Positions 1 to 20,088 of a stretch of 64,000 bases of DNA are shown here, in pieces. The notes below the pieces were generated by a model. That model saw nothing but the letters and a program-made list of their open reading frames with translations. It made no database searches and was not told the origin of the DNA. Within the stretch, counting starts at the first letter, position 1. Every line of letters begins with the position of its first letter. This DNA comes from a virus. The position numbers and the translations under genes were made by a program. The stretch covers positions 130,036 through 194,035 of IMG/VR virus record IMGVR_UViG_3300008110_010000, one strand, 5' to 3'.

Positions 1-756
1 AACCTAGACAAAGGATTAGCCTATGCTGATTATCTAGGAGAAAATCTTGATAAAACAGTTCAGTACAGCGATTATTTAGCTGAAAAGCTTTCTAAGAATA
101 TTAGCTATGCTGAATATATTGCCGAGACAGTTAATTCTTCAAACGGCACTAAGGAAATGAAAGAAGCGGTAACTAAAGCAATTTCAGAGAACACAAATAC
201 TTCTGGATATGCTGGAGATTACAGCAAAATTTCAAACAAAATCGACAACTTATTAAATACCGTTAGTAAACAAAAAACGGAACAAATAGCAGAAGCTAAG
301 AATTTTCCTTTCTTGGGTCTTATGAGCCAAGCAAATCAGACACAATTCTTATCCCTGCATGAGGGCCAAAAACAAAAGGTCGCTAAAGCGTTGAACGAAA
401 GCAACTACTCATCCGAAAAAGAGGTAGTTGAAATCATGGGTAAAGCTCTGGTTGAACAAAATCAATCTGGAGAAAAGTTCTTAGACATGATGCCAGAAAA
501 ATATAGAGGAGCTTGGGAAAGCATGAACGAGGGTCAAAAAGCCTCTATCATTGCTCAAAGCAAATTCTATAGACTGGACACACCTTACCAAATCCAGAAC
601 TTCTGGGCTACTAGGGGTATTTCAGTTCCAAAGGCAAATGTGGAAAGAATAGACGAATCCCAAAATCAAACAATCTCAGCTTCTCAGCCAAAGGCAGTCT
701 CTAGAGAATATCTACAGAACCTTTCAGAGGCTTTAGAAGCTAGATTTAAAAAATAA
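1..756 (+). CDS. Prohead core scaffold protein, gp22-like (5' end outside the window)
   Basis: The frame is open from the first base, so this is the C-terminal 251 residues of a longer gene; the ATG at 157 is probably internal. The middle of the fragment (SLHEGQKQKVAKAL followed by NYSSEKEVVEIM) resembles the C-terminal part of the T4 prohead core protein gp22 (LTESQKEKVSALVEG, then a helix). The preceding part carries three degenerate repeats of a Y-x-[DE]-Y-[LI]-x-E pattern about 17 residues apart, consistent with a helical core protein. Scaffold proteins of this type fill the prohead and are degraded by the gp21 protease. It lies directly upstream of the capsid gene, the same order as T4 genes 22 and 23. 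The assignment rests on order and remembered similarity. Confidence 0.75.
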   Translation, partial: NLDKGLAYADYLGENLDKTVQYSDYLAEKLSKNISYAEYIAETVNSSNGTKEMKEAVTKAISENTNTSGYAGDYSKISNKIDNLLNTVSKQKTEQIAEAKNFPFLGLMSQANQTQFLSLHEGQKQKVAKALNESNYSSEKEVVEIMGKALVEQNQSGEKFLDMMPEKYRGAWESMNEGQKASIIAQSKFYRLDTPYQIQNFWATRGISVPKANVERIDESQNQTISASQPKAVSREYLQNLSEALEARFKK

Positions 757-770
757 CATTTTTTTCAAAA

Positions 771-2510
771 ATGCAACTAATTAATCAACATGAAATCTAT
801 GAAACCTGGGCTCCAGTACTTGAGAGCAAAACAGGTATTCAAGAGAAAGGCAAATTAGATTGGTTAACCAAATATTGCCATTATCACTCTCTAAACGAAT
901 CTGCTGGTGCGTACAACACTCTTGGCGTACTTGGCGGTATGGGTCAAATTGCTGCTCCTTCAAACGTAGGTCTTTCTGGCGGTCCTGCTGGCTTTTATGC
1001 TGGTGGTTCTTATGCTGGTACAGGTCTTGGTTCTGGTGACAAATTCCCTTCACTTCTTCCGCTTGCTATTCAGGTAGCTGCTAAGACAGTAGGTTTTGAC
1101 ATTGTTCCAGTTATCCCAATGAGCGGTCCTACAGGAGTACTTAGCTATCTTGACTATGTATATGCTGGTGGTAAGCTTTCTGGTACTGACACAGTATCTC
1201 CTTACACAGCTTCTTCCCCTGACCTTATTAAAGTTCCTTCCTCAACAGCTTCTCCAGTATCTGGTTTAACTGTAGGATCAACTTACCTTCTAGGTGCTGC
1301 AGGTCTTTCTTCAACAAAAGATCTTGATAGTGCTGGTGTTGGTGCTCTTGTAGCTGGTAAATATGTTGGTAACTCTCGTATCGATGGTTTTCCAATTTTC
1401 CAAGTAATAGCTCAAACAACTGGTTTCTCAATTGCTCAAGCAATCGATGCAGATGCAGTTATCTACTCTGGTTCATTCAATACAGGAACAAACGTTTACA
1501 CAATCTCTGCAACAGTAGGCTATGCTAACGGTGCTGCAGTATTAGTTAAGACTCTAGAAGATCACGTACAAGGTGCTTCTGGTGCTGGTCTTGACAACAC
1601 AAACGCTTGGCAAGGTCCATACGTAGACGGTACAAAAGCCTACGATCCTATGTCAAGAGGTACAGCTGAAAGTACTTATTTCAAGTCTCTTGGTTTAACT
1701 ACTTTCACTAAGTTCGTAGAAGCTGGAACTTTCCAAGTTGCTGCTTCTGTGACAACTGAGCAAATCCAAGATCTTAACAAGCAATTCGGTATCGACGTAG
1801 TTTCTATGATCGAAAACGCACTTGTTAATGAGGTTTCTCAGGCGATCAACAAGCACATCCTTTCTAGAGCATTTGCTCTTGGATGGTCTAACCACGCTGA
1901 ATTCAAGAACACAGAAGGTACTAACCTTAACTTGAACTTGAAATTCACTGGAGGTGGATCTAACTTAACCTTCATCGGTAAAGATAACGCTCAGCTTGTA
2001 ATTGCTGGTGGTACTGCTATCGGTACAGGTGGTTATGAGAACCAGTCAACTGTACAAAGAAGACTATTCTCAAGAATCCTTGCTGCTGCTAACGTGGTTG
2101 CAAACAGAGGAAGAAGAGGCCCTGCTAACTTCATCGTTACTAACTCTCAAGTTGCCTCTGCTTTACAGGATATCTCTCAGTTCACTTTCGCTCCTTTCAC
2201 AAACACTCTTACTCAGAACAACGGTACACTTTACCCAGTTGGTTCTATCGCTGGTATGACAGTTTATGTTGACCAGAACATGTCTTTCGGAGACACAAGA
2301 GTGCTAGTAGGTAGAAAAGGTGGAGACGACGAACCAGGTCTTAAGTTCATGCCTTACATGATGGCTGAGTCAATTCAGACTATCTCTGAAGGTACTATGT
2401 CACCTAAGATTGCAGTTAAATCTAGATACGCTCTAGTTGAGGCTGGTCACCATCCTCAAACAATGTACATCTGCTTCCACGTAGAAGTACCTGCAACTGG
2501 TATTGCTTAA
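771..2510 (+). CDS. Major capsid protein, gp23-like, with cleavable N-terminal propeptide
   Basis: This 579-residue protein (T4 gp23 is 521) aligns by eye with gp23. Residues 10-20 (YETWAPVLES) match the T4 delta segment (LNKWKPLLEG). A block GFDIVPVIPMSGPTG matches AFDICGVQPMNSPTG. The later elements RRGPANFIVTNS and VDQN plus a C-terminal KSRYALVEAG also fit. A candidate prohead-protease site of the (L/I)-x-E type, LNE|S, follows residue 43, close to where T4 cuts gp23 (after E65). The region after about residue 140 is Gly/Ser/Thr-rich and longer than in T4, probably an inserted surface domain. There is no Shine-Dalgarno; the start is preceded by a T/A-rich stretch. A strong terminator follows. 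Codon use is more GC-tolerant and regular than in neighbours, as expected for a highly expressed gene. Confidence 0.95.
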   Translation: MQLINQHEIYETWAPVLESKTGIQEKGKLDWLTKYCHYHSLNESAGAYNTLGVLGGMGQIAAPSNVGLSGGPAGFYAGGSYAGTGLGSGDKFPSLLPLAIQVAAKTVGFDIVPVIPMSGPTGVLSYLDYVYAGGKLSGTDTVSPYTASSPDLIKVPSSTASPVSGLTVGSTYLLGAAGLSSTKDLDSAGVGALVAGKYVGNSRIDGFPIFQVIAQTTGFSIAQAIDADAVIYSGSFNTGTNVYTISATVGYANGAAVLVKTLEDHVQGASGAGLDNTNAWQGPYVDGTKAYDPMSRGTAESTYFKSLGLTTFTKFVEAGTFQVAASVTTEQIQDLNKQFGIDVVSMIENALVNEVSQAINKHILSRAFALGWSNHAEFKNTEGTNLNLNLKFTGGGSNLTFIGKDNAQLVIAGGTAIGTGGYENQSTVQRRLFSRILAAANVVANRGRRGPANFIVTNSQVASALQDISQFTFAPFTNTLTQNNGTLYPVGSIAGMTVYVDQNMSFGDTRVLVGRKGGDDEPGLKFMPYMMAESIQTISEGTMSPKIAVKSRYALVEAGHHPQTMYICFHVEVPATGIA

Positions 2511-2584: not shown

Positions 2585-2594
2585 GATATATAAA
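2585..2594 (+). promoter_or_regulatory. T4-late-promoter-like motif GATATATAAA
   Basis: The motif GATATATAAA lies between the capsid terminator and the next start codon, 15 bases before the ATG. The same word recurs in front of many genes in the window and resembles the T4 late promoter TATAAATA. No -35 element is evident. Confidence 0.6.
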
Positions 2595-2608: not shown

Positions 2609-3727
2609 ATGATGATTCTAGAAAATTTCAAAGTGTATTCTGAGTGTAAAGATGCACTAATCGAATCCTACGGAGATATAGAGATTGCTAAAAAGAAAAT
2701 GCTTTCTCGGAACTCTGATCTTGATGAATATATTATTGAGGAAAATTTGATTGCAATCAAAGAAGGACTCGGTGATAAAATTCTTAATTTCTTTTCTAAG
2801 ATTGTTGGAGGTGATATTAAAAAACTCAGCACAATTCTAGAAGATATGAAATCAGAAGAGACTAAGTTCATCAGAGATGAACATGAAGCTGAATCCAAAT
2901 TTTACAAACTTAGCTCTGCTTTAGCACAACTTAAGAAAGATAGAGCAGACAAGACAGAGCAGGATGCTATTTTAGTTAAACTTAACAAAGTACAAAAATT
3001 AATTAAGGATCTTGTTTCTTCACATAATTCCATAATGGACGATTTGGAAAAATCAGTAGGAATTATAATTAAAGACAATAAAAGAAAAACTGAATATTAT
3101 AATTTAAAAAGAGCTGAAGATTCTGTAGAGACCAAAAAATTAAGAGTAGATTTTAAGAAAAAATTAATCACTGACGAAGATAGCTCTGAATATCTTTCTG
3201 ACATTCAAAAGATCCTAGGAAATCCTAAAGATGCTGAGAAGGATCTAGAAAAAGCTCAGGACAATTTATCCAAGGAGAAAGACAAAATTGGTGCTTCAGA
3301 TGAAGTTACCAAAATGCCTTCTAAGAAAATAGAATCAATCCTTGATACGTACCACAAAGAAATAATGAAGTCTATCAAAGATATTAAAAGTCATTCAGAT
3401 GAAAGTATTAGCGTTTTAAAAGATCTTAGAGATAAAGATTCAGCAGATAACTCAGCATATTCTAGTATGAAGGATATGTTTAACACTAAAAAGGAAAAAG
3501 CAGTGGGATTGGTAGAAGTTGCTATTTCTAAAATTGCTCAGGTTAAAACTGAGGAAAATGATAACGTCCAAGACAAAAATAAAGCAATAGACTATCTTAT
3601 AAATATTAAGAATAAGATGTCTAGAATTAGCTACATAAAATGGCCTTCAACAGATCTTGACAAGGAAAAGGAAAGGATGGATAAAGTAATTCAAAAAATA
3701 TCAGAAGAATTCCAAAAAGCAGCTTAA
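2609..3727 (+). CDS. Predicted coiled-coil internal head protein
   Basis: I do not recognise a family for this 372-residue protein. It is charged, Lys/Glu-rich and almost wholly predicted helical, with long heptad-like stretches. The N-terminus (MMILENFKVYSE) has the form of the T4 capsid-targeting segment (MKTYQEFIAE): a short amphipathic helix with aromatic residues ending in Glu. That segment directs internal proteins into the prohead and is cut off by the gp21 protease. Two ATG codons are adjacent (2609 and 2612) and either may be used. A late-promoter-like motif precedes it, and its stop overlaps the next start (TAATG), so the two are translationally coupled. A packaged internal or core role is an inference. 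Confidence 0.85.
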   Translation: MMILENFKVYSECKDALIESYGDIEIAKKKMLSRNSDLDEYIIEENLIAIKEGLGDKILNFFSKIVGGDIKKLSTILEDMKSEETKFIRDEHEAESKFYKLSSALAQLKKDRADKTEQDAILVKLNKVQKLIKDLVSSHNSIMDDLEKSVGIIIKDNKRKTEYYNLKRAEDSVETKKLRVDFKKKLITDEDSSEYLSDIQKILGNPKDAEKDLEKAQDNLSKEKDKIGASDEVTKMPSKKIESILDTYHKEIMKSIKDIKSHSDESISVLKDLRDKDSADNSAYSSMKDMFNTKKEKAVGLVEVAISKIAQVKTEENDNVQDKNKAIDYLINIKNKMSRISYIKWPSTDLDKEKERMDKVIQKISEEFQKAA

Positions 3728-4575
3728 TGAAAAAGTATTCCGAATTTATATCTGAAAGCCACATGAACGAAGGTTTTTTTAAAAATCTAGTAAACAGAGT
3801 GGGATCTTTTCTTTCCGGGAGTAAACCTAAAATTCAGGACAAGATCAATAAGATGGTGCAGATAGAAAAAGACTTTATTGATAAATCGGACGAGCTTAAC
3901 TATGATATCTTTTATAGTGAATCTAAAAAGATGCAAGATCCTGTGATGATGAATAATGCCAGACAAAAGGCATTAATGAGTAAAAGAGCTTTAGATGCTA
4001 TGAAAATAGCAAAAAATTCCGAAATGAATTTTATAATAAAAGAAATTAAAGAAATATGTGGTGATGACACATCTTTAATAAACTTTTATCAGAAAAATAA
4101 AATTGCAGCGGATTCTCAAATAGCTCAATATGCATATGAAAAGGCAAGAAGATTCAAAGATTATGAATACGAGAATCAATTTTATAATCAATGGAAAGGG
4201 TTAGAAGCAGAATCTAAAAAGTACAAAACCGAAACCCCATACAGGGAAGAAACTTATCTAAGGGATGAAGGAAATTGGGGCATGTATGATTTGCCTCTAA
4301 GGGAATTTACTAATCAAATTAGCGGACTCCCTAAAGCAGATATTGCTGAGATGCTAGAAGATATCGCAGCTTTGAAATATGAGATGGATAGGGATTACAA
4401 AAAGAAAACAGAAGAGCTTAAAGAACTAAGAGCTATTTCTTACAGATCCGGAGATATTCAAACTTTTCAAATGGCAAAAAGCAGAAATGAAGATCTGAAA
4501 GACGAATACCGCAGAAATAGTAATTCCATAAATCAAAAAATTACCATCTTAAGGAATAGGCTAAAGAATATATAG
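3727..4575 (+). CDS. Predicted internal head protein with capsid-targeting-like N-terminus
   Basis: This 282-residue protein has no recognised domain. Its first eleven residues, MKKYSEFISES, are strikingly like the T4 internal-protein targeting sequence MKTYQEFIAEA, including an I-S-E|S site that fits the (L/I)-x-E rule of the T4 prohead protease. The rest is helical and very rich in Lys, Glu, Tyr and Asn. The start overlaps the previous stop by one base (TAATG), indicating coupling. The last codons and stop (AATATATAG) form part of a late-promoter-like AT-rich word just ahead of the next gene. The role as a protein packaged with DNA is inferred from the N-terminus and its position next to the capsid gene. 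Confidence 0.85.
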   Translation: MKKYSEFISESHMNEGFFKNLVNRVGSFLSGSKPKIQDKINKMVQIEKDFIDKSDELNYDIFYSESKKMQDPVMMNNARQKALMSKRALDAMKIAKNSEMNFIIKEIKEICGDDTSLINFYQKNKIAADSQIAQYAYEKARRFKDYEYENQFYNQWKGLEAESKKYKTETPYREETYLRDEGNWGMYDLPLREFTNQISGLPKADIAEMLEDIAALKYEMDRDYKKKTEELKELRAISYRSGDIQTFQMAKSRNEDLKDEYRRNSNSINQKITILRNRLKNI

Positions 4576-4592
4576 ATAAAATAAATAAAATC

Positions 4593-6863
4593 ATGAGAAA
4601 TCCTCTTTTTGAAAGCTTAGTTAATAGGGCTAATTCATATAAAAACCCGTTTCTTAACGAACAGGACAAACCTCAACCCGGAACGGTTTTTTCTGATTAT
4701 GTTAAATCCCTTGCAAAATTAGGTAACGATCTAGCTGCAAACTTTATTATTGCTGTTAATAGCTATCCAGAGCCATCTAAGTTTAAAGATGAGTATATTG
4801 CAAATTTACCAGCAAAAATTCAAGCAGCAGTTGATGCTATTGATACTAAAAAAACAATAGGACCACAATTAGAAGATTTTTATAATGCTTTAAGACAAGA
4901 GGTAAACAATTTTTTAAGTGCATCTAAGGGTGACACAGAATATGTTAATCTACTAGATGAATGGAGAAAAAATCTTTCCTCCGGTTTTAAAAATTACAAA
5001 GTAGCAATTGATAAAGCTATGGTTTATGTTAAACAACAGGACGAATCAGGACAAGCCAGAATGGAAGATTCTGACTGGGAGTTGTTAAAAAAACTTGTTT
5101 CTGGAGGCTTAGCAAAGCTTAAAGACGAAATGCAAACAAAGGCAACATTAGCAGGGGAAAGTAAGTCCTTTATTCCGGAAGAATTTTCAACTAGAGGCCA
5201 AGTTATGGAACAACTCATCCATAATAAAATAGCTATCGATTTTAATTCTTTTAATAGGATAGTAAACGAGGCTAAAGAAGATAGGGTTGCTAGAAGAAAT
5301 GCCAGGGCAGAATCTGCTAGAGTTGAAACCTTAGAAGGATCTGTTAAGGGGGTTCTTGAACTTATAGCAATGAGATCTGGTGATCCCTCCAAGAAGAATT
5401 TTAAATCCCTAGCAATGAACGGAGAATTTGTCTCCCTTATAAAGAGCGTTGCCGAGGTTAGAGCAGAATTATCAGTTGATGACGAGCAGAAGAAAGATAT
5501 AGATTTTAAACAGGTCGGTAAAACAATTTCGAATTTAGAATCTCTATTCAAATCTAAAAAAGATGCTTTTGATAAAGCATACGATGAGGAATCAAAGACT
5601 CTTAGAAGTTTTAAAACACTATCAATTGCAACCCCTGAAGTCGAAAAATACAAACAAGATGGTGATAACGCTTTTAGCACACTTCCTATGCTTTCTCAAA
5701 ATGCTGCCAATCAAGCTGCAATAGAAAGAAAGAAACCTAAACCAACAGGAGATTCAGGTACTGCAGGAACAGCAGGAACAGCAGGTAGCGCTGGAGCTTC
5801 AGCACCTTTTAAATTAGAAAATACTGTTAAATATGATGCTAAAAAGAGGGGGAGTGTAAATGATGACGTTAAAAAAGTTCAACAATTAATTATCGATAAA
5901 ATCGGAAAGTCAAGCAAGGGAAAAGACAGTGAACTTTATAAGAAATTTTCCAAGTATGGGGCAGACGGAAAATTTGGACAAAACACAGGAAATCTTATAT
6001 CCTCTATTAAGGCAGGATTGGGATTAAAGGATACTTCTTCTGATATTACCCAAGAATTAGTGGATAAACTTTCCTCCGAGGTATTTGAATCACTTTACTC
6101 TGTTAGAGAGAACTTCGATTGGGATGCATATACCGCAAAATCAAATTCTTTCTCTTCGTCGGGTTCTAAATCGGGATCATCGGGATCTGGATCAGGAGGA
6201 GAAAAAAAATCCAGCACTTTTAATTGCATTAGGTCTGCAGACAACACAACAAAAATCTCGGGAGGTAAGGCAACCATAGAAAGAGAAAATAAAAACAAGC
6301 ACACTTTTAATGCAGATGGGACTTATTCTTTTTTCTATGCATCAAAAAACGAAACACTTAAAGGAACATGGAAATGCACCCCAGAGGGATTTGAAGCTTA
6401 TACAGATTCCGATAAGGACACGTTCTACGGAACACCAGGAGTAATGGACTGGAAAAGTAACATGGACCAAGCTGAGAAAGCAAAAGCAGACGCAGTGGCA
6501 AAAGCAGCTGCAGATCTTCAAGTTAAGGCGGGTGAGATATGTAAAAAGATTTTAGTTAAGATGTCCGGAGCAAACGAGAGAGAAGAAGAGGCTGCTGCAG
6601 TATTTAGAGACGAGGTCACAACTCCAGAAATGTTTAAAGCGGTCGAGACCTTTTGGAATAATAAATGGTGGCCTTCACAAAGACAAATGATGAATGCTCC
6701 TTCTTATTATAATAAAATGTCAGTGGACGAAATAACGAAATTTATGGAATATAAAAAGGATAAAAGTGGATTCGGATTAAGAAACCTAGTTCAATTTTAT
6801 TTTGACAACTCTCAAAAAGCCTTACTGAATGGATACCTTCCATCAGGGGTAAAGAAGTTCTAG
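4593..6863 (+). CDS. Large head-region protein with a peptidoglycan-binding-like domain
   Basis: This 756-residue protein is modular. Residues 1-30 include two candidate prohead-protease sites (LFE|S and LNE|Q). Residues 30-380 are helical and charged. A GTA-repeat linker occupies about 388-402. Residues about 412-485 resemble a PG_binding_1 fold: DDVKKVQQLI followed by GADGKFGQNT, the usual D-G-x-F-G-x-x-T turn. A Ser/Gly linker (about 517-540) leads to a small beta-rich domain with FNADGTYSF (about 545-600) and a helical C-terminus rich in Trp and Tyr. In T4-like phages PG-binding modules usually sit in lysins or tail parts, so one joined to a head-type leader is odd. An internal or ejected wall-binding protein is possible. 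Its start follows an A-rich leader without Shine-Dalgarno. Confidence 0.85.
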   Translation: MRNPLFESLVNRANSYKNPFLNEQDKPQPGTVFSDYVKSLAKLGNDLAANFIIAVNSYPEPSKFKDEYIANLPAKIQAAVDAIDTKKTIGPQLEDFYNALRQEVNNFLSASKGDTEYVNLLDEWRKNLSSGFKNYKVAIDKAMVYVKQQDESGQARMEDSDWELLKKLVSGGLAKLKDEMQTKATLAGESKSFIPEEFSTRGQVMEQLIHNKIAIDFNSFNRIVNEAKEDRVARRNARAESARVETLEGSVKGVLELIAMRSGDPSKKNFKSLAMNGEFVSLIKSVAEVRAELSVDDEQKKDIDFKQVGKTISNLESLFKSKKDAFDKAYDEESKTLRSFKTLSIATPEVEKYKQDGDNAFSTLPMLSQNAANQAAIERKKPKPTGDSGTAGTAGTAGSAGASAPFKLENTVKYDAKKRGSVNDDVKKVQQLIIDKIGKSSKGKDSELYKKFSKYGADGKFGQNTGNLISSIKAGLGLKDTSSDITQELVDKLSSEVFESLYSVRENFDWDAYTAKSNSFSSSGSKSGSSGSGSGGEKKSSTFNCIRSADNTTKISGGKATIERENKNKHTFNADGTYSFFYASKNETLKGTWKCTPEGFEAYTDSDKDTFYGTPGVMDWKSNMDQAEKAKADAVAKAAADLQVKAGEICKKILVKMSGANEREEEAAAVFRDEVTTPEMFKAVETFWNNKWWPSQRQMMNAPSYYNKMSVDEITKFMEYKKDKSGFGLRNLVQFYFDNSQKALLNGYLPSGVKKF

Positions 6864-6908
6864 CTGTAATGACATTTTAATAAATACGGAATTTTTAGTA
6901 CTTTTAGG

Positions 6909-6918
6909 GATATAAATT
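6909..6918 (+). promoter_or_regulatory. Late-promoter-like motif GATATAAATT
   Basis: GATATAAATT contains TATAAAT, nearly the T4 late consensus TATAAATA. It lies 8 bases before the start of the P-loop kinase gene, so a transcript starting at the usual distance would have little or no leader. Confidence 0.55.
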
Positions 6919-6926
6919 TAAAATTT

Positions 6927-7466
6927 ATGTCCCTTTTTGTTGTAGAGGGAGCCAGAAAGTCAGGTAAAACTTTTTTTGTCAGCTCCCAAAATACCTTTCC
7001 AGTTTTTAAGTTCGATTTTAACGGAGCTTATACAAATTTAGAACTCCCAGAGGGTGGAGAGATAACTCATGGTATCGGATTAGGCAAGGAATTAATGGTT
7101 CATCAATTGAATAGAGATTCTTTTTTACCCGATTTAATCATGGATCGGGGGGTAATTACCAATTCCGTCTGGGGAATACTTAACAACCGGGTATCCCGCG
7201 ATACAGTTTATCAGGAATTGGCTTACATGGTAAAAAATAATCTTTTTAAAGATGTCTTTTTCTTTTATGTTTATGGAACATACCAAGGAGAAAGAAAAAA
7301 AGACGTTTGGGACCACATGGATAAAATGATCCCGAAGGAAATAGAAATCTTTGATGAGATCATAGCTTATCTTTCGTTAGCCGGTGTTAAGATTCACAAG
7401 GTTGAAAACAAGTTTGATCTTGAATCGCTATCCGGATTTCAGACTATAATTAAGAACTTAAAATAA
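6927..7466 (+). CDS. P-loop kinase, thymidylate/deoxynucleotide-kinase-like
   Basis: The 179-residue protein starts with a beta strand and a clear Walker A motif, G-A-R-K-S-G-K-T (residues 8-15). A downstream DRG motif (LIMDRGVITNS, about 68-78) sits where thymidylate and deoxynucleoside kinases have their DR-x substrate-binding motif. The length fits a small nucleoside or nucleotide kinase. Alternatives are another small P-loop phosphotransferase or GTPase; I see no clear Walker B aspartate pair or LID. Its stop overlaps the asparagine synthetase start (TAATG), so the two proteins are probably made together. The substrate is unknown. Confidence 0.75.
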   Translation: MSLFVVEGARKSGKTFFVSSQNTFPVFKFDFNGAYTNLELPEGGEITHGIGLGKELMVHQLNRDSFLPDLIMDRGVITNSVWGILNNRVSRDTVYQELAYMVKNNLFKDVFFFYVYGTYQGERKKDVWDHMDKMIPKEIEIFDEIIAYLSLAGVKIHKVENKFDLESLSGFQTIIKNLK

Positions 7467-8884
7467 TGTGCGGAATACTAATTGCTCATAATCCCTCAGA
7501 GGAAAGGATAAAATCCATTTCTCATAGAGGTATTGAATATTACACTCATTCAGATGCTTCTGGACTGACTCTATGCCACCATAGATTGCCTATTCAGACT
7601 GCAGTTGGTGACGGCTGGATTCAGCCAGTAGAGTTATCTAATAACCGTTATCTCCTATTTAACGGGGAAATTTTTAATTACCCCTTACATTATGGATCAG
7701 ATACAGAATACCTCAAAGATCTTTTTAGTACCTTTGAATTTTCCTCCTTGGAGATGTTTATCTCTCTATATGAACCACATATTAAAAGCTGGGATGGGTT
7801 TTGGGCTATTTGCTTGGTTGATATGTCCAAGAAAGATGTGATTTGCTTTACAGATCCTCTAGGTAAGAAGTGCCTTTATACCAACGAATTAGGTGAGATC
7901 TGTTCAGAGATGAAAGGTTTACTGAATGAAAATTCTATAATTAGCTCAGGATTTATGGGCGGTGTGAGGAAATGGGGGTATGTTGCTAACGAATCTACCC
8001 CCTTCGAAAACGTCCAAAAATTAAAACCTAATTTCATCTACAAATGGAATTTTAATGCTCCGGACTTTAAGCAAGAATATGGTCCTTATTTCGCATTTAA
8101 ACCCCCCAAATTTCAATTTGATTCTGAAGACATGTTACTAGATTGGGTTTGGAATAAACTCGAGCTGGCAACAAAAAACAGGCTATTAAGCTTGGATTAT
8201 CCTATCTCCATCTTACTATCCGGTGGATTGGACTCTTCTATCATAGGAGGGTTACTTCTTAAACTTGGGGCAGATGTTAGCTGGTACACTATCAATAATG
8301 GTCCAGATGACGAATATGTTAGAGAATGCGAGGATTACTGGGGAATAAAAGTAAATCGCCTAGAATACAACATGAATGAGGTAGATTTAGATCTAAACGA
8401 GATTTATTTTAGGTGGAACGAATCCCCCGTTGATATGGGAAGTGTGGTACCCCAATATCATCTCTTTGATGCTATTAAAAAAGGAACAAATACCAGAATA
8501 GTTTTATCCGGTGATGGGGCGGATGAAATGTTTGGGGGGTATCGGAGAATAAACGAATATGATTCCCAGCAATCCGATATTTTCCATGAACTCACATATT
8601 ATCACCTTCCTAGATTAGATAAAATGAGTATGGCACATACTTTGGAGTTAAGAAACCCGTTTTTAAATTTAGAACTAATTCAGCTTGCAATGTGGCTTCC
8701 ATTTGAATACCGGAAGAATAAGACAATTTTGAAAAAAACTTTCAAAGGGCTAGTTCCAGATTCTGTTATAGAAAGAAAGAAACATCCTTTAAAGAACGAC
8801 AAAATAGTAAAAGATCCCAATGATTATAGGGTTGAAGCTATTAATTACTTTGTAAAGGGATACGAAAACTATCTTTTAAAATAG
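7466..8884 (+). CDS. asnB: Asparagine synthetase (glutamine-hydrolysing) family protein
   Basis: The 472-residue protein has both AsnB domains. The class II glutamine amidotransferase domain begins MCGI, with Cys2 as the expected nucleophile, then HRGIEYY (20-26) and NGEIFN (66-71). The synthetase domain has the pyrophosphatase loop SGGLDSS (252-258) and SGDGADEMFGGY (348-359). All key motifs look intact. It is somewhat shorter than typical AsnB (about 510-550), mainly in loops and the C-terminus. The reaction would be aspartate + glutamine + ATP to asparagine. Homologues also amidate sugar carboxylates in O-antigen pathways, which is a real alternative given the nearby glycan genes. It is coupled to the kinase upstream and overlaps the tail of the convergent RimK-protease gene by 9 bases. 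Confidence 0.93.
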   Translation: MCGILIAHNPSEERIKSISHRGIEYYTHSDASGLTLCHHRLPIQTAVGDGWIQPVELSNNRYLLFNGEIFNYPLHYGSDTEYLKDLFSTFEFSSLEMFISLYEPHIKSWDGFWAICLVDMSKKDVICFTDPLGKKCLYTNELGEICSEMKGLLNENSIISSGFMGGVRKWGYVANESTPFENVQKLKPNFIYKWNFNAPDFKQEYGPYFAFKPPKFQFDSEDMLLDWVWNKLELATKNRLLSLDYPISILLSGGLDSSIIGGLLLKLGADVSWYTINNGPDDEYVRECEDYWGIKVNRLEYNMNEVDLDLNEIYFRWNESPVDMGSVVPQYHLFDAIKKGTNTRIVLSGDGADEMFGGYRRINEYDSQQSDIFHELTYYHLPRLDKMSMAHTLELRNPFLNLELIQLAMWLPFEYRKNKTILKKTFKGLVPDSVIERKKHPLKNDKIVKDPNDYRVEAINYFVKGYENYLLK

Positions 8885-10342
8885 ATCTATACCTGCTGTA
8901 GAATCTCCCTTAGCTTTAAGAGGAGAATATTTCATAGGTTCTTGTGTCAGCAAGAAAGTTTTACTTGAATCTACTATTAGGCCAGCTTCCTCCATAAATG
9001 TTCTGTTAATTAACATCGGGGTGCTTTTATAGGTTCTATCCACTAGAGAAAATTTTATCTTCTTATAGACCATTCCATTGAATTCTACATCCATGAGAAT
9101 TACTGGTCTCTTCTCTGTTTGATCACCAACCTCAGCATGAGAGTAATCTACTATTCTGTTACTAAAGGATTTACCCCCAATTGTCCAATTTATAAATTCA
9201 TCCTCTTGGATTGAATAGTCTGCATGTAAAGAACATGCCATTGCTCCGTTCCCGGTGTCAAGTTTACCTATAAATTTACCAACACCTTTTACATCAAAGA
9301 TCTCTCTAAATCCTGCTACTTTTCTTGGATAGTTCCAGTTCTTTTTATTTAAGATGAAATCTAAAACTATTGATGTGACATCTAAACCTGTTGCTTTTTC
9401 TATGCCATCAGTTCCGGGAGATGCATTTACCTCTAGAACATAAGGTAAACCTGTATCCTTTTCTATGATAATATCAACTCCACACCAGGAACATCCAGTA
9501 GCTTTTGCTGCTTCTATAGCAAGATGTTCTATTTCTGGAGATATTTCGATAGCTTCTGCTCTGCCGCCTAATGAGACATTGGTTCTAAAATCTTTTTCAA
9601 TCTTGATCCTTTTCATTGCAGCTATAACCGTATAATCAGTTCCCGTTCTCTCGTTCTTGGTCCCAAGTACATGGATTCTCAGGTCGTGGTCCGCTTCAAT
9701 TTTTTCTTGTACAATAAGCTCAGTATCCGGTGATAATTTCCAAATTGTTTGTAATGTAGAAAGTAAAGATTCCTGTGAATCTGCCTGAAATACACCTATT
9801 CCCTTTGTTCCGCTGAGGAGCTTTACAATTACCGGATATTTTCCTCCTATTCTAGAAACGGAGCTTTCGATATCTTCCTCCGATGATATAAGAGAAGTTT
9901 TTGGCGTTGATATTTTTTTCTCTTGAAGTTTTTGAACTGTATCTAATTTATCTTCACAAAGAAGCACAGATTTTAATGAGTTTACTGAAACAAAGCCCAG
10001 AGATTCTAATTTCTCAAAGAATTTAACAGCAGCGGTGGAGTTTATGCTAGATCTTCTAGCAAGAATGATGGAGCTTTTAGGTTCTATTTCATACTTGTTT
10101 TTACTTCCTTTATTTCTTATATAAAAGCTTCCAGATTCTGTTTTTTCTATTTCCCCTTGTGATGTATCAACAACAACACATTTAAAGTTCATAGCAGAGG
10201 ATTTAGCCATCATTTTTTTAACAGTTGGGGCATATGAGTTTTCTTTGGACTCTAGCTTGGTTGTTAAAATTATTAAAGATATTGGTTTCCCTTGATTTGG
10301 TTTACCCCCCTGAAATACGAATTCTTCTTGTTCTGTAATCAC
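8876..10342 (-). CDS. RimK-type ATP-grasp ligase fused to a retropepsin-like protease
   Basis: Residues 20-335 form a RimK-like ATP-grasp domain. They include the ATP loop LSGTKGIGV (176-184), a basic segment, and metal-binding residues in CGVDI (D290) and LEVNASPG (E304, N306). Residues 345-475 match the RimK-associated retropepsin-like protease family (RimB/DUF785, also called ATP-dependent zinc protease): KLDTGNGA with the catalytic DTG at 362-364, LHADY, and late MLINRTFM and IVDSSKTFLL. RimK adds glutamate residues to ribosomal protein S6 and RimB works with it; in most bacteria they are separate genes. The start is GTG, chosen because it follows an A-rich leader and a minus-strand late-promoter-like motif and because the upstream frame soon ends. 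Target and ligated amino acid are unknown. Confidence 0.92.
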   Translation of the reverse strand: MITEQEEFVFQGGKPNQGKPISLIILTTKLESKENSYAPTVKKMMAKSSAMNFKCVVVDTSQGEIEKTESGSFYIRNKGSKNKYEIEPKSSIILARRSSINSTAAVKFFEKLESLGFVSVNSLKSVLLCEDKLDTVQKLQEKKISTPKTSLISSEEDIESSVSRIGGKYPVIVKLLSGTKGIGVFQADSQESLLSTLQTIWKLSPDTELIVQEKIEADHDLRIHVLGTKNERTGTDYTVIAAMKRIKIEKDFRTNVSLGGRAEAIEISPEIEHLAIEAAKATGCSWCGVDIIIEKDTGLPYVLEVNASPGTDGIEKATGLDVTSIVLDFILNKKNWNYPRKVAGFREIFDVKGVGKFIGKLDTGNGAMACSLHADYSIQEDEFINWTIGGKSFSNRIVDYSHAEVGDQTEKRPVILMDVEFNGMVYKKIKFSLVDRTYKSTPMLINRTFMEEAGLIVDSSKTFLLTQEPMKYSPLKAKGDSTAGIDLF

Positions 10343-10353
10343 TACCTTATTTG

Positions 10354-10367
10354 TTTATCTATATATC
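10354..10367 (-). promoter_or_regulatory. Minus-strand late-promoter-like motif GATATATAGATAAA
   Basis: Read on the minus strand the word is GATATATAGATAAA, 11 bases before the GTG of the RimK-protease fusion. It is back-to-back with a plus-strand copy 21 bases away, forming a compact divergent promoter. A very similar word (AATATATAGATAAA) precedes the gene that starts at 4593. Confidence 0.5.
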
Positions 10368-10388
10368 AACGTTTCCCCTGCAAGAAGA

Positions 10389-10400
10389 GATATATAAATA
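10389..10400 (+). promoter_or_regulatory. Late-promoter-like motif GATATATAAATA
   Basis: This is the fullest form of the recurring motif and contains the exact T4 late-promoter octamer TATAAATA. It lies 11 bases before the ATG at 10412 and settles that start over earlier in-frame ATGs, which would place the motif inside the coding sequence. Confidence 0.65.
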
Positions 10401-10411
10401 AAAAAGTAAAG

Positions 10412-11065
10412 ATGAAGGTACTAAGGTATTCGGAATTTAGTTTAAACGAATCTCATGAGGAGTACTTTAAGCTCTTAGAAGGACTAGATGCTCATTATCA
10501 AAACATGGTTGAAAATGGATATAGTCAGAATCAGATCGATGAGGGTATATGGGATTTAGTAGGATCACTAGGTGCAGGATTTACTGACCGAATGAAAAAC
10601 TATGCTGCTGGATGGCTTTTGAAGCAATTGGGTCTTCCCTCAGATAACAACTTTTTAAGTGAATTTGCAAAGAACATTATCGAACAAGTAAGTTTTAGAA
10701 ATATAGGAAGATATTTCGGAGAAGGATCCTGTAAATATTGGATAGATGCCATCGGAAAAGGACTATTGGAGACACTAGAAGAAAAAGCGCTTGCCGTTAT
10801 CTTATCCAGAGGAATTGGAATAGACATTAACATGAGCGGAGGTTTTATGGGAACACTTGCCGGATCAATGAGAGAGGCTTTAACTAATTATATAAACTCA
10901 ACACAATTTGTGGAATCTTTGAGTGATAAACTTGAGGGTGTAGTTTGTGGTCAGGGAACTTCTTTTACCAACATATTCGGAGGTAAATTCTCAGAAAAAG
11001 ATATAGAAAATGCTGCTATGGGAAAAGAGAAAAGCGGCGGTATTCTGGATATATTAGGTATATAA
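10412..11065 (+). CDS. Predicted internal head protein with capsid-targeting-like N-terminus
   Basis: This 217-residue protein has no family I recognise. The frame is open 120 bases further upstream, but that segment overlaps the divergent gene and the promoter motif, so I start at MKVLRYSEFSLNES. This N-terminus again resembles the T4 internal-protein leader and carries an L-N-E|S site of the prohead-protease type. The remainder mixes helices with Gly-rich, weakly hydrophobic segments (for example a stretch with GIGIDINMSGGFMG), suggesting a membrane-interacting or bundled helical protein. It is followed 10 bases later by a small gene in the same direction. The packaged-protein role is an inference. 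Confidence 0.85.
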   Translation: MKVLRYSEFSLNESHEEYFKLLEGLDAHYQNMVENGYSQNQIDEGIWDLVGSLGAGFTDRMKNYAAGWLLKQLGLPSDNNFLSEFAKNIIEQVSFRNIGRYFGEGSCKYWIDAIGKGLLETLEEKALAVILSRGIGIDINMSGGFMGTLAGSMREALTNYINSTQFVESLSDKLEGVVCGQGTSFTNIFGGKFSEKDIENAAMGKEKSGGILDILGI

Positions 11066-11075
11066 TACTTTAAAA

Positions 11076-11336
11076 ATGCATACAAAAGACATAAAAAAGA
11101 GAGAAGTATTAGACTTTAAGCAATTTCTTAAAGTTGTAAACGATCCATGGAATTCCAAAAATTTTAACAAAGAAGTTAAAAACAGGTCTCCATTTCATAA
11201 AATAAAGCCAGAACAGCCTTATGATTATGTGGGATATAAGGATGGTGTTTTTAATCAAACTTCTAAAATAGACTATCCAGGAAAAGGATCTCAGGAGTCT
11301 GGAATGGCATCCAATATGGGTGATGCAACTGAATAA
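11076..11336 (+). CDS. Small hypothetical protein
   Basis: This 86-residue basic protein is of unknown function. Its N-terminal section contains VLDFKQFLKVVND, a loose version of the aromatic leader seen in neighbouring head-region proteins, though without a clear (L/I)-x-E site. The C-terminal half is polar and Gly/Ser-rich and probably disordered. It is 10 bases after the previous gene, with an AT-rich leader TTTAAAA before the ATG. It probably belongs to the same late transcript. Confidence 0.75.
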   Translation: MHTKDIKKREVLDFKQFLKVVNDPWNSKNFNKEVKNRSPFHKIKPEQPYDYVGYKDGVFNQTSKIDYPGKGSQESGMASNMGDATE

Positions 11337-11350
11337 TTTCCAGAAAAAAA

Positions 11351-11362
11351 GATATATAAATA
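11351..11362 (+). promoter_or_regulatory. Late-promoter-like motif GATATATAAATA
   Basis: An exact copy of the 12-base motif found at 10389, including TATAAATA. It is 13 bases before the start codon of the hyperacidic protein. Confidence 0.65.
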
Positions 11363-11375
11363 AAATACGAATACA

Positions 11376-11909
11376 ATGGAAAAAAAGATATTAAGTTTTG
11401 AAGAGTTTTCTAAGCGATATGCAGAAGGAACTCTCGACCAAGATCTTCCACAAGAAGAATCACCAGAAGATGATTCAATGGATTTTGACGGTGGATCTGA
11501 TGATGTAATGGGAGATGAGGAAACTGAAGAAGAAAACGAAGAAACTGAAGGTGGATCCGAAGATGATTTTGAAATAGGCGGGGAAGATACCGAATCTGAA
11601 GAAGATACCGAATCTGACGAAGACGAGGAAGATATGGGAATGGATGATGAAGAAGAGGAGCAAGAGGAAATGGAAGAGTCTGAAGAAGATGCATTCGAGA
11701 GAGAGGTTCAAGAATACAATGAAGAATACGACTTCGAAGAAGACGAGAATTTAGAAGAGGAAATGGACGAAGAAGAAATGGAAGGTGGAGATCAAGAGGA
11801 TATGGATTGGGATCATGAAATGGGCATGGAGGAATCCGATGAAATGGAAGAGGAAGAAGAAGAATCAGAGGAAATTTCAAATCCAGCTTTCAATAAATTT
11901 TTTAACTAA
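11376..11909 (+). CDS. Hyperacidic protein with capsid-targeting-like leader
   Basis: After a leader with the recurring aromatic pattern (ILSFEEFSKRYAEG), this 177-residue protein is almost entirely Glu and Asp with scattered Met, Gly and Ser, and only a handful of Lys or Arg. No folded domain is visible. The final residues (NPAFNKFFN) are not acidic and may be a docking tail. Its own promoter motif and terminator suggest a strongly expressed single-gene unit. By analogy it could be a prohead core component like T4 gp67/gp68, a DNA-mimic, or a counter-ion-binding internal protein. The strong purine bias of the coding strand produces long open frames on the opposite strand that are not genes. 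Confidence 0.88.
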   Translation: MEKKILSFEEFSKRYAEGTLDQDLPQEESPEDDSMDFDGGSDDVMGDEETEEENEETEGGSEDDFEIGGEDTESEEDTESDEDEEDMGMDDEEEEQEEMEESEEDAFEREVQEYNEEYDFEEDENLEEEMDEEEMEGGDQEDMDWDHEMGMEESDEMEEEEEESEEISNPAFNKFFN

Positions 11910-11930
11910 TAAGCATTAATAATACAAGCG

Positions 11931-11957
11931 AAGGGATCAATTATTTGATCCCTTTTT
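11931..11957 (+). terminator. Rho-independent terminator after the hyperacidic gene
   Basis: A perfect 10-base-pair stem (AAGGGATCAA with TTGATCCCTT) closes on a TTAT loop and is followed by a T-rich tail. It starts 22 bases after the stop codon. Confidence 0.92.
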
Positions 11958-11968
11958 CTTTTTATAGT

Positions 11969-11978
11969 GATATATAAA
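11969..11978 (+). promoter_or_regulatory. Late-promoter-like motif GATATATAAA
   Basis: The motif lies immediately after the terminator and only 4 bases before the next ATG. If transcription starts at the usual T4 late distance, the message would begin at or next to the start codon. Confidence 0.6.
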
Positions 11979-11982
11979 ACAA

Positions 11983-12537
11983 ATGAGTTTAAGGCATATA
12001 AAATCTTTCAGTTCTCTTTTCGAAAGCACTTCGGCGGGATCCCACGACCGAGGATATTCTGATGTTCCCCCTTTTAAATACGCCATAAATTTTGATCACA
12101 GGATCGGTTATTCTAAAGATGATTTTGCAAAGGATCTGAATGAGATCTACCTTAGATCTTCCTCTAAGGAAAAATCCGAAATGATGGATTTTATATTTAA
12201 GAATTCAGGGATATTAAAGATCTCACAAATACCAGAGCTTTCTCAGGAAAAAATAGATACTTTAATAAAAGACCTGGAGGGGTTTTTAGATTCTAGAGCA
12301 GAGCATAATCCTAAAATGCTTCCAGACGGTTATTTGTTATGCTACGAGAATTTGAGGAAAAAGGGAAGAAGATGCGACGTGTATTATTCCCCTTCTTTGA
12401 AATCTGTGAAGATCTGCTTTACTGACTCATATCCAGAGAAAGACGACGAAGTTATTTCCCTAGAAGATTTTATCCCAGATTCAGTGGGAATTAATCAGAA
12501 AGAATTTTCCAATTTATTGAGTAGAATGGAAGGTTAA
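11983..12537 (+). CDS. Hypothetical head-region protein
   Basis: This 184-residue protein is of unknown function. Its N-terminus, IKSFSSLFEST, follows the aromatic leader pattern and contains an L-F-E|S site of the prohead-protease type. The body looks globular (mixed charged helices and a beta-rich segment with RRCDVYYSPSLKSVKICF). It has its own promoter motif and ends 4 bases into the tail of the convergent minus-strand gene. It may be another packaged protein, but without the leader there would be nothing to suggest that. Confidence 0.82.
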   Translation: MSLRHIKSFSSLFESTSAGSHDRGYSDVPPFKYAINFDHRIGYSKDDFAKDLNEIYLRSSSKEKSEMMDFIFKNSGILKISQIPELSQEKIDTLIKDLEGFLDSRAEHNPKMLPDGYLLCYENLRKKGRRCDVYYSPSLKSVKICFTDSYPEKDDEVISLEDFIPDSVGINQKEFSNLLSRMEG

Positions 12538-13407: not shown

Positions 13408-13992
13408 ATGAGCCCCTTTCTTGTAATAGCTTATTTTACCAAAGGAAACCAATACGAAGCACTCTCGGAAAATCTTAGCAGATCCTGTTCAGAGTTTGGT
13501 ATACCCCTTCACTTAAGCCCCATCCAAAATCTAGGAACCTGGGAAAAGAACACGCACTTTAAAGCAAACTTTATTTTAGATTGTTTATCAGGATTCTCCC
13601 AAAATTTAGTTTATGTTGATGTCGACGCAGTCTTTAGAAGTTACCCAACTTTATTCCAAACAATAGATTGCGATATTGCATATCGAACTGAGAATTTTAG
13701 ATGGAGAAGAAACGAGGCATTAAGTGGAACTATCTTCCTTGCCAACAACGAAAGAACTAAAAGACTGGTTGAAAAATGGATAGAGATCAATAATGTCATA
13801 AAATCGAATAGAATGGACCCAGAAACATGGGAACAGAAAAATATGCAAAGAGCTCTCGAAGTGTGTGATGACGTGTCTTACCAGAACTTGCCACCCGAAT
13901 ACACATTTATCTTTGATCATTCTAAAAGATTGCATCCTGGGGTCTCTCCTGTTATTGAGCATTTTCAGGCTTCTAGAAAAGCTGATATATAA
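13408..13992 (+). CDS. Glycosyltransferase-like protein (nucleotide-diphospho-sugar transferase type)
   Basis: This 194-residue protein has the layout of a small GT-A transferase: an N-terminal beta strand (FLVIAYFT), then NLVYVDVDAVF with a DxD motif (D71, D73) for metal and nucleotide-sugar binding, followed by acceptor-side elements (SGTIFLANNERT and a C-terminal FDHS). It resembles the nucleotide-diphospho-sugar transferase group (GT8/GT77-like) and is related in pattern to the next gene product. It opens the glycan cassette. Its last two codons and stop (GAT ATA TAA) are themselves part of a late-promoter-like motif for the next gene. Donor and acceptor are unknown. Confidence 0.82.
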   Translation: MSPFLVIAYFTKGNQYEALSENLSRSCSEFGIPLHLSPIQNLGTWEKNTHFKANFILDCLSGFSQNLVYVDVDAVFRSYPTLFQTIDCDIAYRTENFRWRRNEALSGTIFLANNERTKRLVEKWIEINNVIKSNRMDPETWEQKNMQRALEVCDDVSYQNLPPEYTFIFDHSKRLHPGVSPVIEHFQASRKADI

Positions 13993-13993
13993 A
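13984..13993 (+). promoter_or_regulatory. Late-promoter-like motif overlapping a stop codon
   Basis: GATATATAAA encodes Asp-Ile-stop of the upstream glycosyltransferase and lies 17 bases before the next ATG, so the motif and the gene end are the same bases. Confidence 0.5.
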
Positions 13994-14010
13994 AAAAACA
14001 CGATTTATAG

Positions 14011-15204
14011 ATGTCTTTTGAAAAATTTAGAAGGTTAAGAAAACCTATTGAAGATCTATTTGGAAAGATTGGAAATACTCCAGCTCCTCCAGATGGGCCT
14101 TTTCGAAGGCCTCCCACTGTTTCCATGTCAACCGAGGAAAAGTTAGCTCTTATGGAAAAAGAAAGTAATGAAGCGAACATCCCTGTTGATTACCCTAAAA
14201 TGACTACTACCATTTATAGTTATTACGCAGACTTCCAACAAAATAATTATTACAAAAATTACGCCCTCAATTTAATTGATAGATGTAAAAAATTCGGTGT
14301 AGCATATAATATTTCGGAAAGAACTTCGAGGGGTAGCTACGGAGCAAATTGCTTAATGAAGCCAGAGTTTGTCCTTGAAAAATTAAAAGAAAGTAAAGCA
14401 CCTTTAATCTGGATGGACTGTGACACTGATTTTAAATCTTCATTTTCAGAGTTTAATAATATATCTGAGGATATTGGAATGGCAACACATAGCGGGGATT
14501 TATCCGGAATAAAAGCTTCGCCTCTTTTTTTCAACTATACTGCAGGATCCTTCAAGATAATAAGGGAATGGGTAGTTCATTGCAGATCTGCTTTTTTAAA
14601 AGGAATCCCTGAATTAGATCATGATGCTTTAAAACACTACGTTTTGCCGCATCTTAGGGGAAATTATTCGGTTTTTCTACTTTCTCAGAATTGGAATGAT
14701 TTTGTACATGGAAAATATATTCATAACGGCAATTCTAGGGTTGATGGGAAAATGGAGACCCATAGGCAAGTGGGGGTAGACGATGATACTAGGGCAAGAT
14801 ACAGTCGAGATGTAAAAACATTTCACGTTTATTTTGAAGAAAAGTCTGAAATAGTCTTTTCTAGTGCTTTAAAATTTCTAAATAATTTTTCAGATTATGC
14901 TCGTCTTAAATTTCATTTCGACCAGGGTTTAGAAAAAATCTCCTGTTCATCCCTAGAATTTCACAAACTCTATACAGAAAGCGGAGGCAATACAACATTT
15001 AGCGAAAACCACTTTACCGATCATAGCCCCTTGAATGGTGAAATAATTCTAGGAGTATCTGGGGTAAAAGATATAGAAAAAGACTGGGACTCTAAAATAT
15101 CAGGTGAAATACAGGGAGGGAAAAATCCTCTCTATGTTTTAAATTATAAAGATGACGGACTAGGAAAAATAACAATAAAGGAGGGATTTAGTTTATGGAA
15201 TTAA
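14011..15204 (+). CDS. Putative glycosyltransferase with DxD motif
   Basis: The first 60 residues form a low-complexity leader with a Pro-rich segment. Residues 65-250 look like a GT-A fold: TTTIYSYYAD, a NYALNLIDRCKK helix, and LIWMDCDTDFK with DCDTD (136-140) as the metal-binding DxD. HDALKHYVLP follows, where such enzymes often carry a late His/Asp. The last 140 residues are less clear. It resembles the preceding gene product in the arrangement of its DxD strand, so the two may be diverged relatives. The stop overlaps the fucosyltransferase start by 10 bases, implying one transcript. The sugar is unknown. Confidence 0.8.
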   Translation: MSFEKFRRLRKPIEDLFGKIGNTPAPPDGPFRRPPTVSMSTEEKLALMEKESNEANIPVDYPKMTTTIYSYYADFQQNNYYKNYALNLIDRCKKFGVAYNISERTSRGSYGANCLMKPEFVLEKLKESKAPLIWMDCDTDFKSSFSEFNNISEDIGMATHSGDLSGIKASPLFFNYTAGSFKIIREWVVHCRSAFLKGIPELDHDALKHYVLPHLRGNYSVFLLSQNWNDFVHGKYIHNGNSRVDGKMETHRQVGVDDDTRARYSRDVKTFHVYFEEKSEIVFSSALKFLNNFSDYARLKFHFDQGLEKISCSSLEFHKLYTESGGNTTFSENHFTDHSPLNGEIILGVSGVKDIEKDWDSKISGEIQGGKNPLYVLNYKDDGLGKITIKEGFSLWN

Positions 15205-16049
15205 TCAAAGGATTCGGTTTACCGTTCCCCGCGGAGTACTCTTCGTGTTCTAATTTACCCCCTAAATCTTTTTCATGGACAACAGGTGATGCTGATATTC
15301 ACGTTTATATAGACAATAGAATTTTTGACGGACTAGAAACCCCTAGGCATGAATTTAAATTCGGTTGGTTGTGTGAATCTCGAGAAATTGCTATAGAAAT
15401 TTATAGTGCTGTTTATCAGAATCCAGGAAGATATAAAAACAAGTACGCTGGCATTTTTACCTGCGAGGAGTTTTTAATTCAGTCGGATCCTGAATTTTTC
15501 TTTTATGCCCCACCGGGATCTAATCTTCCTTGGACTAAACCGGATGAAATGCGAATTTATCAGAAGAGCAAAAAATGCTCAATGATATGTTCACCTAAAG
15601 CAAGAACTGATGGACATAAATTCAGATTAGAGGTAGCTGACAAGTTAAAAGAATCTCTCGATCTTTTTGGGGGAGCACACAACTCGCCTAGAATTGGTGA
15701 TGGCTCTGGACCAAATGGGGATTGGTGGCGATCGAAACTTCCAGCTTTGAAAGATTACATGTTTTCCGTGGTTTTTGAGAATGCTGTCTATGAAAAATAT
15801 TACACCGAAAAAATAACCGATTGTTTTGCTACCGGGACAATCCCTGTTTACTGGGGGTCTAGAAAAGTTTGCGAGGATTTTAATCCCGATGGTATAATTT
15901 TCTATAACGATTTAAAATCATTAGATGATTTAACCCACGATCTTTACAATTCGATGTTAGATAGTGTTATTGATAATTTAGAGAGAGTTAAAAAGTTAGA
16001 ATCTGCTGACGATATCATATTTAATAAAATAAAATCTATTTGTGGATAA
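15195..16049 (+). CDS. GT10 family fucosyltransferase
   Basis: The C-terminal half carries the alpha-1,3/4-fucosyltransferase (GT10) signature: FSVVFENAVYEKYYTEK then GTIPVYWG (residues 190-221). This matches the family pattern F-x-FEN-x(n)-D/Y-Y-x-TEK-x(n)-P-V-Y-W-G, which binds GDP-fucose. The N-terminal half is a shorter acceptor domain. The length of 284 fits bacterial GT10 enzymes. Both genes for making GDP-L-fucose lie at the end of the same cassette, which strongly supports fucose as the donor sugar. The start overlaps the previous stop by 10 bases and the end overlaps the pyruvyltransferase start by 8. Confidence 0.9.
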   Translation: MELIKGFGLPFPAEYSSCSNLPPKSFSWTTGDADIHVYIDNRIFDGLETPRHEFKFGWLCESREIAIEIYSAVYQNPGRYKNKYAGIFTCEEFLIQSDPEFFFYAPPGSNLPWTKPDEMRIYQKSKKCSMICSPKARTDGHKFRLEVADKLKESLDLFGGAHNSPRIGDGSGPNGDWWRSKLPALKDYMFSVVFENAVYEKYYTEKITDCFATGTIPVYWGSRKVCEDFNPDGIIFYNDLKSLDDLTHDLYNSMLDSVIDNLERVKKLESADDIIFNKIKSICG

Positions 16050-18254: not shown

Positions 18255-18259
18255 AAAAT

Positions 18260-18838: not shown

Positions 18839-18849
18839 AATTCATTTAT

Positions 18850-19362: not shown

Positions 19363-19375
19363 TAAAAAAAAGTAT

Positions 19376-20074: not shown

Positions 20075-20088
20075 ATCGTTAATATTTT

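Follow-up and report, generated by a model that had tools for sequence, protein, structure and literature searches.

The window analysed here is a stretch of 64,000 nucleotides from a T4-like jumbo phage whose virus record (G000) is 219,355 bp long; it covers positions 130036-194035. Judged by their capsid proteins, its kin are Prevotella Lak phages, Tenacibaculum phage PTm1, Sphingomonas phage PAU and uncultured huge phages of 462-735 kb; we infer a Bacteroidota host because most named hosts of these relatives belong to that group. A search of known phages for near-identical DNA gave no match. About 80 close relatives were taken from viral contigs, and seven clade members and several other genomes were read whole or in part, with gene starts as set by our own gene caller. 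The gene order is a protease-scaffold fusion, the capsid gene and then, downstream, the tail genes (Table 1). An island of glycosyltransferase-, methyltransferase- and GDP-sugar-type genes lies between head and tail genes (window 13408-22028), and two portal-like paralogues stand in tandem upstream of the protease gene (G000 110719-112278, VVKNSQAVGTTEA; 112369-113994, VVKNSQAIGVSEA). The protease part of the fusion matches annotated prohead proteases of the gp21 type. An 18-N assembly gap (G000 130018-130035), just before window position 1, falls inside the scaffold repeat array and splits this gene, which is continuous in relatives.

Table 1. Features at the start of the window (window coordinates; ↓, candidate cleavage site)
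Feature	Position	Strand	Remarks
Protease-scaffold fusion, C-terminal part	1..756	+	Last 14-residue repeats in CTS register (NISYAEYIAE etc.); start upstream, L008:16801
Major capsid protein, gp23 family, with propeptide	771..2510	+	Pfam Gp23 2.2e-40; candidate site YHSLNE43↓SAGAY
GATATATA octamer	2585..2592	+	Precedes 2609-4593 operon
Leader-bearing core protein A	2609..3727	+	N-terminus MMILENFKVYSE; best conserved residue E52 (AIKE↓GLG)
Leader-bearing core protein B	3727..4575	+	MKKYSEFISES; E15 (MNE↓G), most conserved column of the family
Large leader-bearing protein C	4593..6863	+	MRNPLFES...NPFLNEQ; candidate sites NPLFE7↓S and FLNE23↓Q
RimK-like ATP-grasp homologue	8876..10342	-	Starts EEFVFQG, without cleavable leader; preceded by octamer
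GATATATA octamer	10360..10367	-	Precedes RimK-like gene 8876-10342(-)
GATATATA octamer	10389..10396	+	23 nt ahead of the 10412 start codon
Leader-bearing protein D	10412..11065	+	N-terminus MKVLRYSEFSLNES; candidate site MKVLRYSEFSLNE↓S (YSEFSLNES); second candidate site QIDE44↓G
GATATATA octamer	11351..11358	+	Precedes 11376
Hyperacidic protein	11376..11909	+	N-terminus MEKKILSFEEFSKRYAEG; leader KILSFEEFSKRYAE17↓G; 51% Asp+Glu; few homologues
GATATATA octamer	11969..11976	+	Precedes 11983
Leader-bearing protein F	11983..12537	+	N-terminus MSLRHIKSFSSLFEST; IKSFSSLFE14↓S
GATATATA octamer, other window copies	13984, 22838(-), 23469, 49963, 62482		Mostly before structural/leader genes

The capsid protein indicates where the protease would cut. 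Its segment HSLNESAGAY is invariant in 73 of 73 relatives, and we take its SLNE↓S site to define the motif of the clade's protease; the position corresponds to the cut in T4 gp23. A first-pass annotation of this DNA had proposed testing whether (L/I)-x-E is enriched near N-termini. In the proteins of this genome, [LIVF]NE[SAGDN] occurs at 2.90 per 1000 residues at positions 10-24 compared with 0.34 per 1000 beyond residue 100, an approximately 8-fold, genome-wide enrichment to which control motifs offered nothing comparable.

The same annotation had described seven proteins with a short aromatic leader between 2.6 and 12.5 kb. Six of them, 2609, 3727, 4593, 10412, 11376 and 11983, were found where it had placed them and have an N-terminal leader that is present or plausible; the seventh, 11076 (MHTKDIKKREVLDFKQFL...), is an exception, with no [LIVFYM].E in its first 75 residues and its conserved residues elsewhere. 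Genes 2609 and 3727 are tandem paralogues. Only 3727 is in the exact T4 register, [FYW]..[FYW][ILVM].E, the other head-region genes being gapped or degenerate; its MKKYSEFISE shares Y4, F7, I8 and E10 with MKTYQEFIAE of T4 IPIII. The members of the 2609 and 3727 families are mostly 15-25% identical to the window protein. Among ~290 columns, the candidate P1 glutamate (E52 and E15, respectively) ranks at the top, being present in 95% of 76-78 nonredundant sequences, and in alignment A3 it is the sole invariant column. In 2609 the conserved glutamate is thus E52 and not that of the first leader. E23 of 4593 is kept in 89% of nonredundant homologues, in 10412 the conservation of E44 (QIDE↓GIW) exceeds that of LNE13, and 11983 has a remote homologue in G004 with the canonical FNQFVNES. 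Leader conservation in homologues, whose absence the annotation had named as a refuting result, holds for the tested families except 11076.

The bodies behind these leaders gave no convincing match to Pfam or PHROG, and a Foldseek search with the 10412 family (model pLDDT 67) gave no significant match. The one protein that had been described as hyperacidic is indeed so (11376), while the PG-binding-like domain attributed to 4593 was not recovered: Pfam PG_binding_1 was absent up to E=1, and a PDB profile search returned chance matches only. In relatives, families 2609, 3727, 4593 and 126212 keep their position beside the genes for protease and capsid protein, and they contain several [LIVFYM].E sites; they look like conserved core/head proteins and not like variable effectors. 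The RimK-like protein has a leader in G002 and G005 (FFSYINES, FKGFLYES) and no recognisable one in G000, G001 and G004, a distribution that suggests modular addition. Compared with the E-ending leaders of its homologues, the EEFVFQG start of the window protein is possibly a leader that targets yet is not cleaved.

We counted leaders at all N-termini and compared them with internal windows and with shuffled N-termini. In this genome, the exact register was observed 7 times (1.0 expected from internal windows; 0.4-0.6 from shuffled N-termini) and the gapped register 17 times (5.3 and 4.4). Over the seven clade genomes the corresponding counts were 36 (8.2 internal; 3.3 shuffled) and 98 (32 and 26). 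The false-positive rate of the pattern is 10-30%, so that single leader assignments can be wrong. Applied to the T4 genome, the same pattern picks out IPII, IPIII and gp61.1. In LR756500 (400 of 462 kb read) we found 19 exact-register leaders against 2.0 expected, many of them near-identical (MKYIKEYEEFILEA...), and in LR756501 (735 kb) 21 against 2.2 in the first 250 kb. PTm1 and PAU, which have related capsid proteins, displayed no genome-wide excess, and the 50 kb read of each of Lak-A1 and LR756504 contained zero leaders. The leader set is not confined to the neighbourhood of the capsid gene: leaders are spread across the genome, with clusters in the 219-kb record at about 0.9, 58-75, 125-142 and 204-212 kb.

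Pooled over genomes and loci, the leader proteins number 289 and fall into 73 sequence clusters; some of these proteins are false positives. When 58 representatives were aligned, the consensus was MxxIxxFxxFxxNE, beyond which there is no common sequence; as the set was chosen by the pattern, F, F and E of this consensus are given, whereas I4 and N13 are independent of the choice. When the N-termini were searched for motifs by unbiased EM, the result drifted into a diffuse pattern, which was left unused. As to gp61.1 of T4 (54 aa, hypothetical; NC_000866 18966-19130), the protein starts with MKTFKEFIKED in the exact targeting register and is possibly an overlooked internal protein.

Many leader genes also share an upstream element. 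This genome has 43 copies of the octamer GATATATA. Only ~8% of the DNA is intergenic, yet 34 copies fall outside genes, and the octamer lies ~13-30 nt before many starts, including those of the protease-scaffold gene, tail/fibre genes, many leader genes and the 2609 operon. By number alone the 10 copies in the window are unremarkable (5.5 expected); it is the placement that stands out, mostly 13-40 nt ahead of structural and leader genes. In the seven genomes the octamer precedes 49 of 106 leader genes and 146 of 1218 others (odds ratio 6.3, p=2.6e-16, a pooled value that overstates independence because the clade genomes are related); for this genome alone the association has p=8e-4, or 2e-7 with a looser leader definition. 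The octamer of T4 itself, TATAAATA, was not clearly enriched before leader genes. GATATATA is probably the late promoter of the clade.

Beyond the head region, the leader bodies are mostly of unknown family, with dozens of unrelated bodies over the seven clade genomes. The recognisable leader bearers of this genome are a putative nucleotidyltransferase-fold protein (125457), a CHAP protein (62492), a DUF2201/VWA protein (68645) and a MoxR-type AAA ATPase (209888); those of relatives are adenylate kinase, a CCA/poly(A)-type tRNA nucleotidyltransferase, RimK, PPK2 and possibly GltX. Adenylate kinase was found in two genomes, each time with the leader, and its domain begins behind the leader at residue 26. 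The reading frame of GltX (LR756501 L213:33267-34892) opens with a leader-like extension, FEQFRLLMKES; we keep it only as possible because translation might in fact begin at an internal Met. An SmpB-like match in LR756501, which we took to be native SmpB sequence, was set aside. Leaders on a dCMP deaminase (G006 46316) and on a UvsW-like helicase (G000 203129) were rejected, as homologues lack a leader there.

The putative nucleotidyltransferase family (38 sequences) was characterised further. Its members keep the leader pattern while the residues drift (FKDWSLNE, FSSYFLNE, YNEFISE, FKDFSINE), the predicted cut of the nucleotidyltransferase is at LNE14, and GSLANYN..SDLDVH is conserved in nearly all 38. 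The G000 protein matches Pfam NTP_transf_2 with E=4e-4 and 21.1 bits, barely over the cut-off of 21, and its best Foldseek matches are antibiotic nucleotidyltransferases at marginal E values of 0.004-0.05 and low TM. The AlphaFold model (pLDDT 84.7) is confident except for residues 1-15, which are the leader (pLDDT <50). MoxR-type AAA ATPase and DUF2201/VWA leader bearers recur in distant phages (G000 68645-72022(-) and 209888; LR756500 L201:321-1793) and are candidates for recurrent cargo. Better candidates for ejected effectors than the 2.6-12.5 kb set lie elsewhere: the nucleotidyltransferase, the MoxR/DUF2201-VWA proteins (G000 68.6-71.2 and 209.9 kb) and the enzymes of relatives. The three T4 internal proteins Ip1-3 all inhibit GmrSD enzymes (PMC12373910). 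The leader bodies had no convincing match to known anti-defence proteins, the PADLOC scan covering the huge-phage set, and an anti-defence role of leader proteins is possible.

Taken together, the register, the match to the capsid site, the conservation of the P1 glutamate, the gp21-type protease next door, the shared octamer and the conservation of leaders in homologues lend good support to a capsid-targeting role as first proposed. We consider it likely that what these N-termini have in common is a T4-type capsid-targeting propeptide, carried by some 10-20 packaged and cut proteins encoded across the genome. The leader, M-x-x-[IL]-x-x-[FY]-x-x-[FYW]-(0-5)-[LIV]-N-E, would dock a newly made protein onto the prohead scaffold core, and the gp21-type protease, itself fused to the scaffold, would cut after the glutamate as in the capsid SLNE↓S. 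The mature cargo would stay in the head with the DNA, and at least some of it would probably be ejected. Made alongside the late structural genes, this cargo would comprise conserved core proteins together with assorted enzymes and unknowns.

A narrower explanation would restrict the role to the capsid-adjacent proteins, as prohead core or scaffold components cut during core turnover in the manner of T4 gp67, gp68 and gp22, with the remaining leaders mostly due to chance or to another signal. The core-like look of 2609, 3727, 4593 and 126212, their conserved place beside protease and capsid and their several candidate sites fit this explanation, as does the false-positive rate of the pattern. 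However, the exact-register excess is genome-wide (7 against 1 here, and 19 and 21 against 2 in the two huge phages), orthologues far from the head region retain the leader while drifting, and leader genes have GATATATA too, which together make the restriction unlikely. Tagging for a different structure, such as a membrane assembly site or a replication compartment, would account for leaders on metabolic and translation enzymes (adenylate kinase, CCA tRNA nucleotidyltransferase, GltX, PPK2), which are unexpected as head cargo; we rate this as improbable, since the same type of leader is found on core proteins beside the protease, matches the proven packaging signal of T4 and ends in the capsid cleavage motif. 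Finally, amino-acid or codon bias at the gene starts of an AT-rich phage could produce leaders rich in K, I, F, N and E, residues common in these genomes, but it is refuted as the whole explanation and hardly credible, given that residue-shuffled N-termini yield 3.3 exact-register matches against 36 observed, that control motifs are not comparably enriched and that PTm1 and PAU have no excess.

How propeptides of this kind might be recognised is suggested by the scaffold itself. Downstream of the protease domain, the fusion contains 10-16 tandem repeats of ~14 residues with the consensus NLDKNISYSEYLAE (e.g. YSEYLAEN), the spacing being exactly 14 in 753 of ~790. Every repeat has the form Y-x-x-Y-[LIV]-x-E, which is the register of the leader and of the T4 CTS. 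When a matrix built from the scaffold repeats only was applied, IPII and IPIII (YQEFIAEA, 12.0 each) were the only T4 N-termini to score above 4, and the top score in this genome was that of 3727 (13.7). In each clade genome, no more than 2-3 leaders stand clear of the background by this matrix; too strict beyond these, it was dropped as a tool for listing leaders. Because the residue-level likeness reaches so few leaders, that they mimic the repeat is a proposal. The likeness is suggestive of the leader being a one-unit copy of the tandem repeat, and docking would then proceed by imitation of one 14-residue unit through the same contacts, the protease cutting leader and repeat alike. That the leader is such a mimic, a plug-in label by which huge T4-like phages preload their heads with dozens of unrelated proteins, we advance as a tentative and rather doubtful idea.

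Virion proteomics is usually the only way to learn which proteins a large phage injects, and the phages in question have not been cultivated. If the leader reading is true, sequence would suffice to list what a whole group of jumbo and huge phages packages, and dozens of new candidates for ejected effectors and enzymes would come with it. If the mimic reading is true as well, adenylate kinase, PPK2, CCA tRNA nucleotidyltransferase, glutamyl-tRNA synthetase and RimK would be delivered before phage gene expression. The scaffold-repeat likeness would moreover give a concrete account of the recognition between the T4 targeting sequence and the prohead core.

Packaging leaders of the T4 type are already known; what is new here is the scale, the enzyme cargo and the resemblance to the scaffold. 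In T4 IPIII, residues 4 and 7 carry targeting and residues 8 and 10 processing, and for T4 the targeting of a foreign protein to the head by the leader has been examined in fusions (PMC9026906). Like T4 IPI-IPIII (MKTYQEFIAEA), the proteins described here have a leader of 10-20 residues with aromatic-x-x-aromatic-[LIV]-x-E in front of unrelated bodies, and a gp21-type protease and a gp23-type capsid protein are encoded in the same genome. They differ in number (~10-20 per clade genome, and 25-38 in the read parts of two huge phages), in having N-E instead of A-E before the cut and in a leader usually three residues longer, with aromatics at 7 and 10. Their loci are scattered over the genome and the candidate cargo includes enzymes. 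T4 Alt, a host-modifying ADP-ribosyltransferase, travels in the head after gp21 processing (PMC9026906); the candidate here is a putative nucleotidyltransferase-fold protein (G000 125457), and no ADP-ribosyltransferase was seen. The ejection proteins of the giant phages SPN3US and phiKZ are comparable in that many head proteins of a jumbo phage lose propeptides to a prohead protease cutting after x-x-E (PMC5694885), but those of SPN3US are mostly >100 residues long, whereas the leaders described here are short, T4-like and share a recognisable motif. Tenacibaculum phage PTm1 likewise has a fused protease-scaffold gene ('prohead core scaffolding protein and protease') directly before its capsid gene; the genome-wide excess of leaders, which PTm1 lacks, distinguishes this clade from it.
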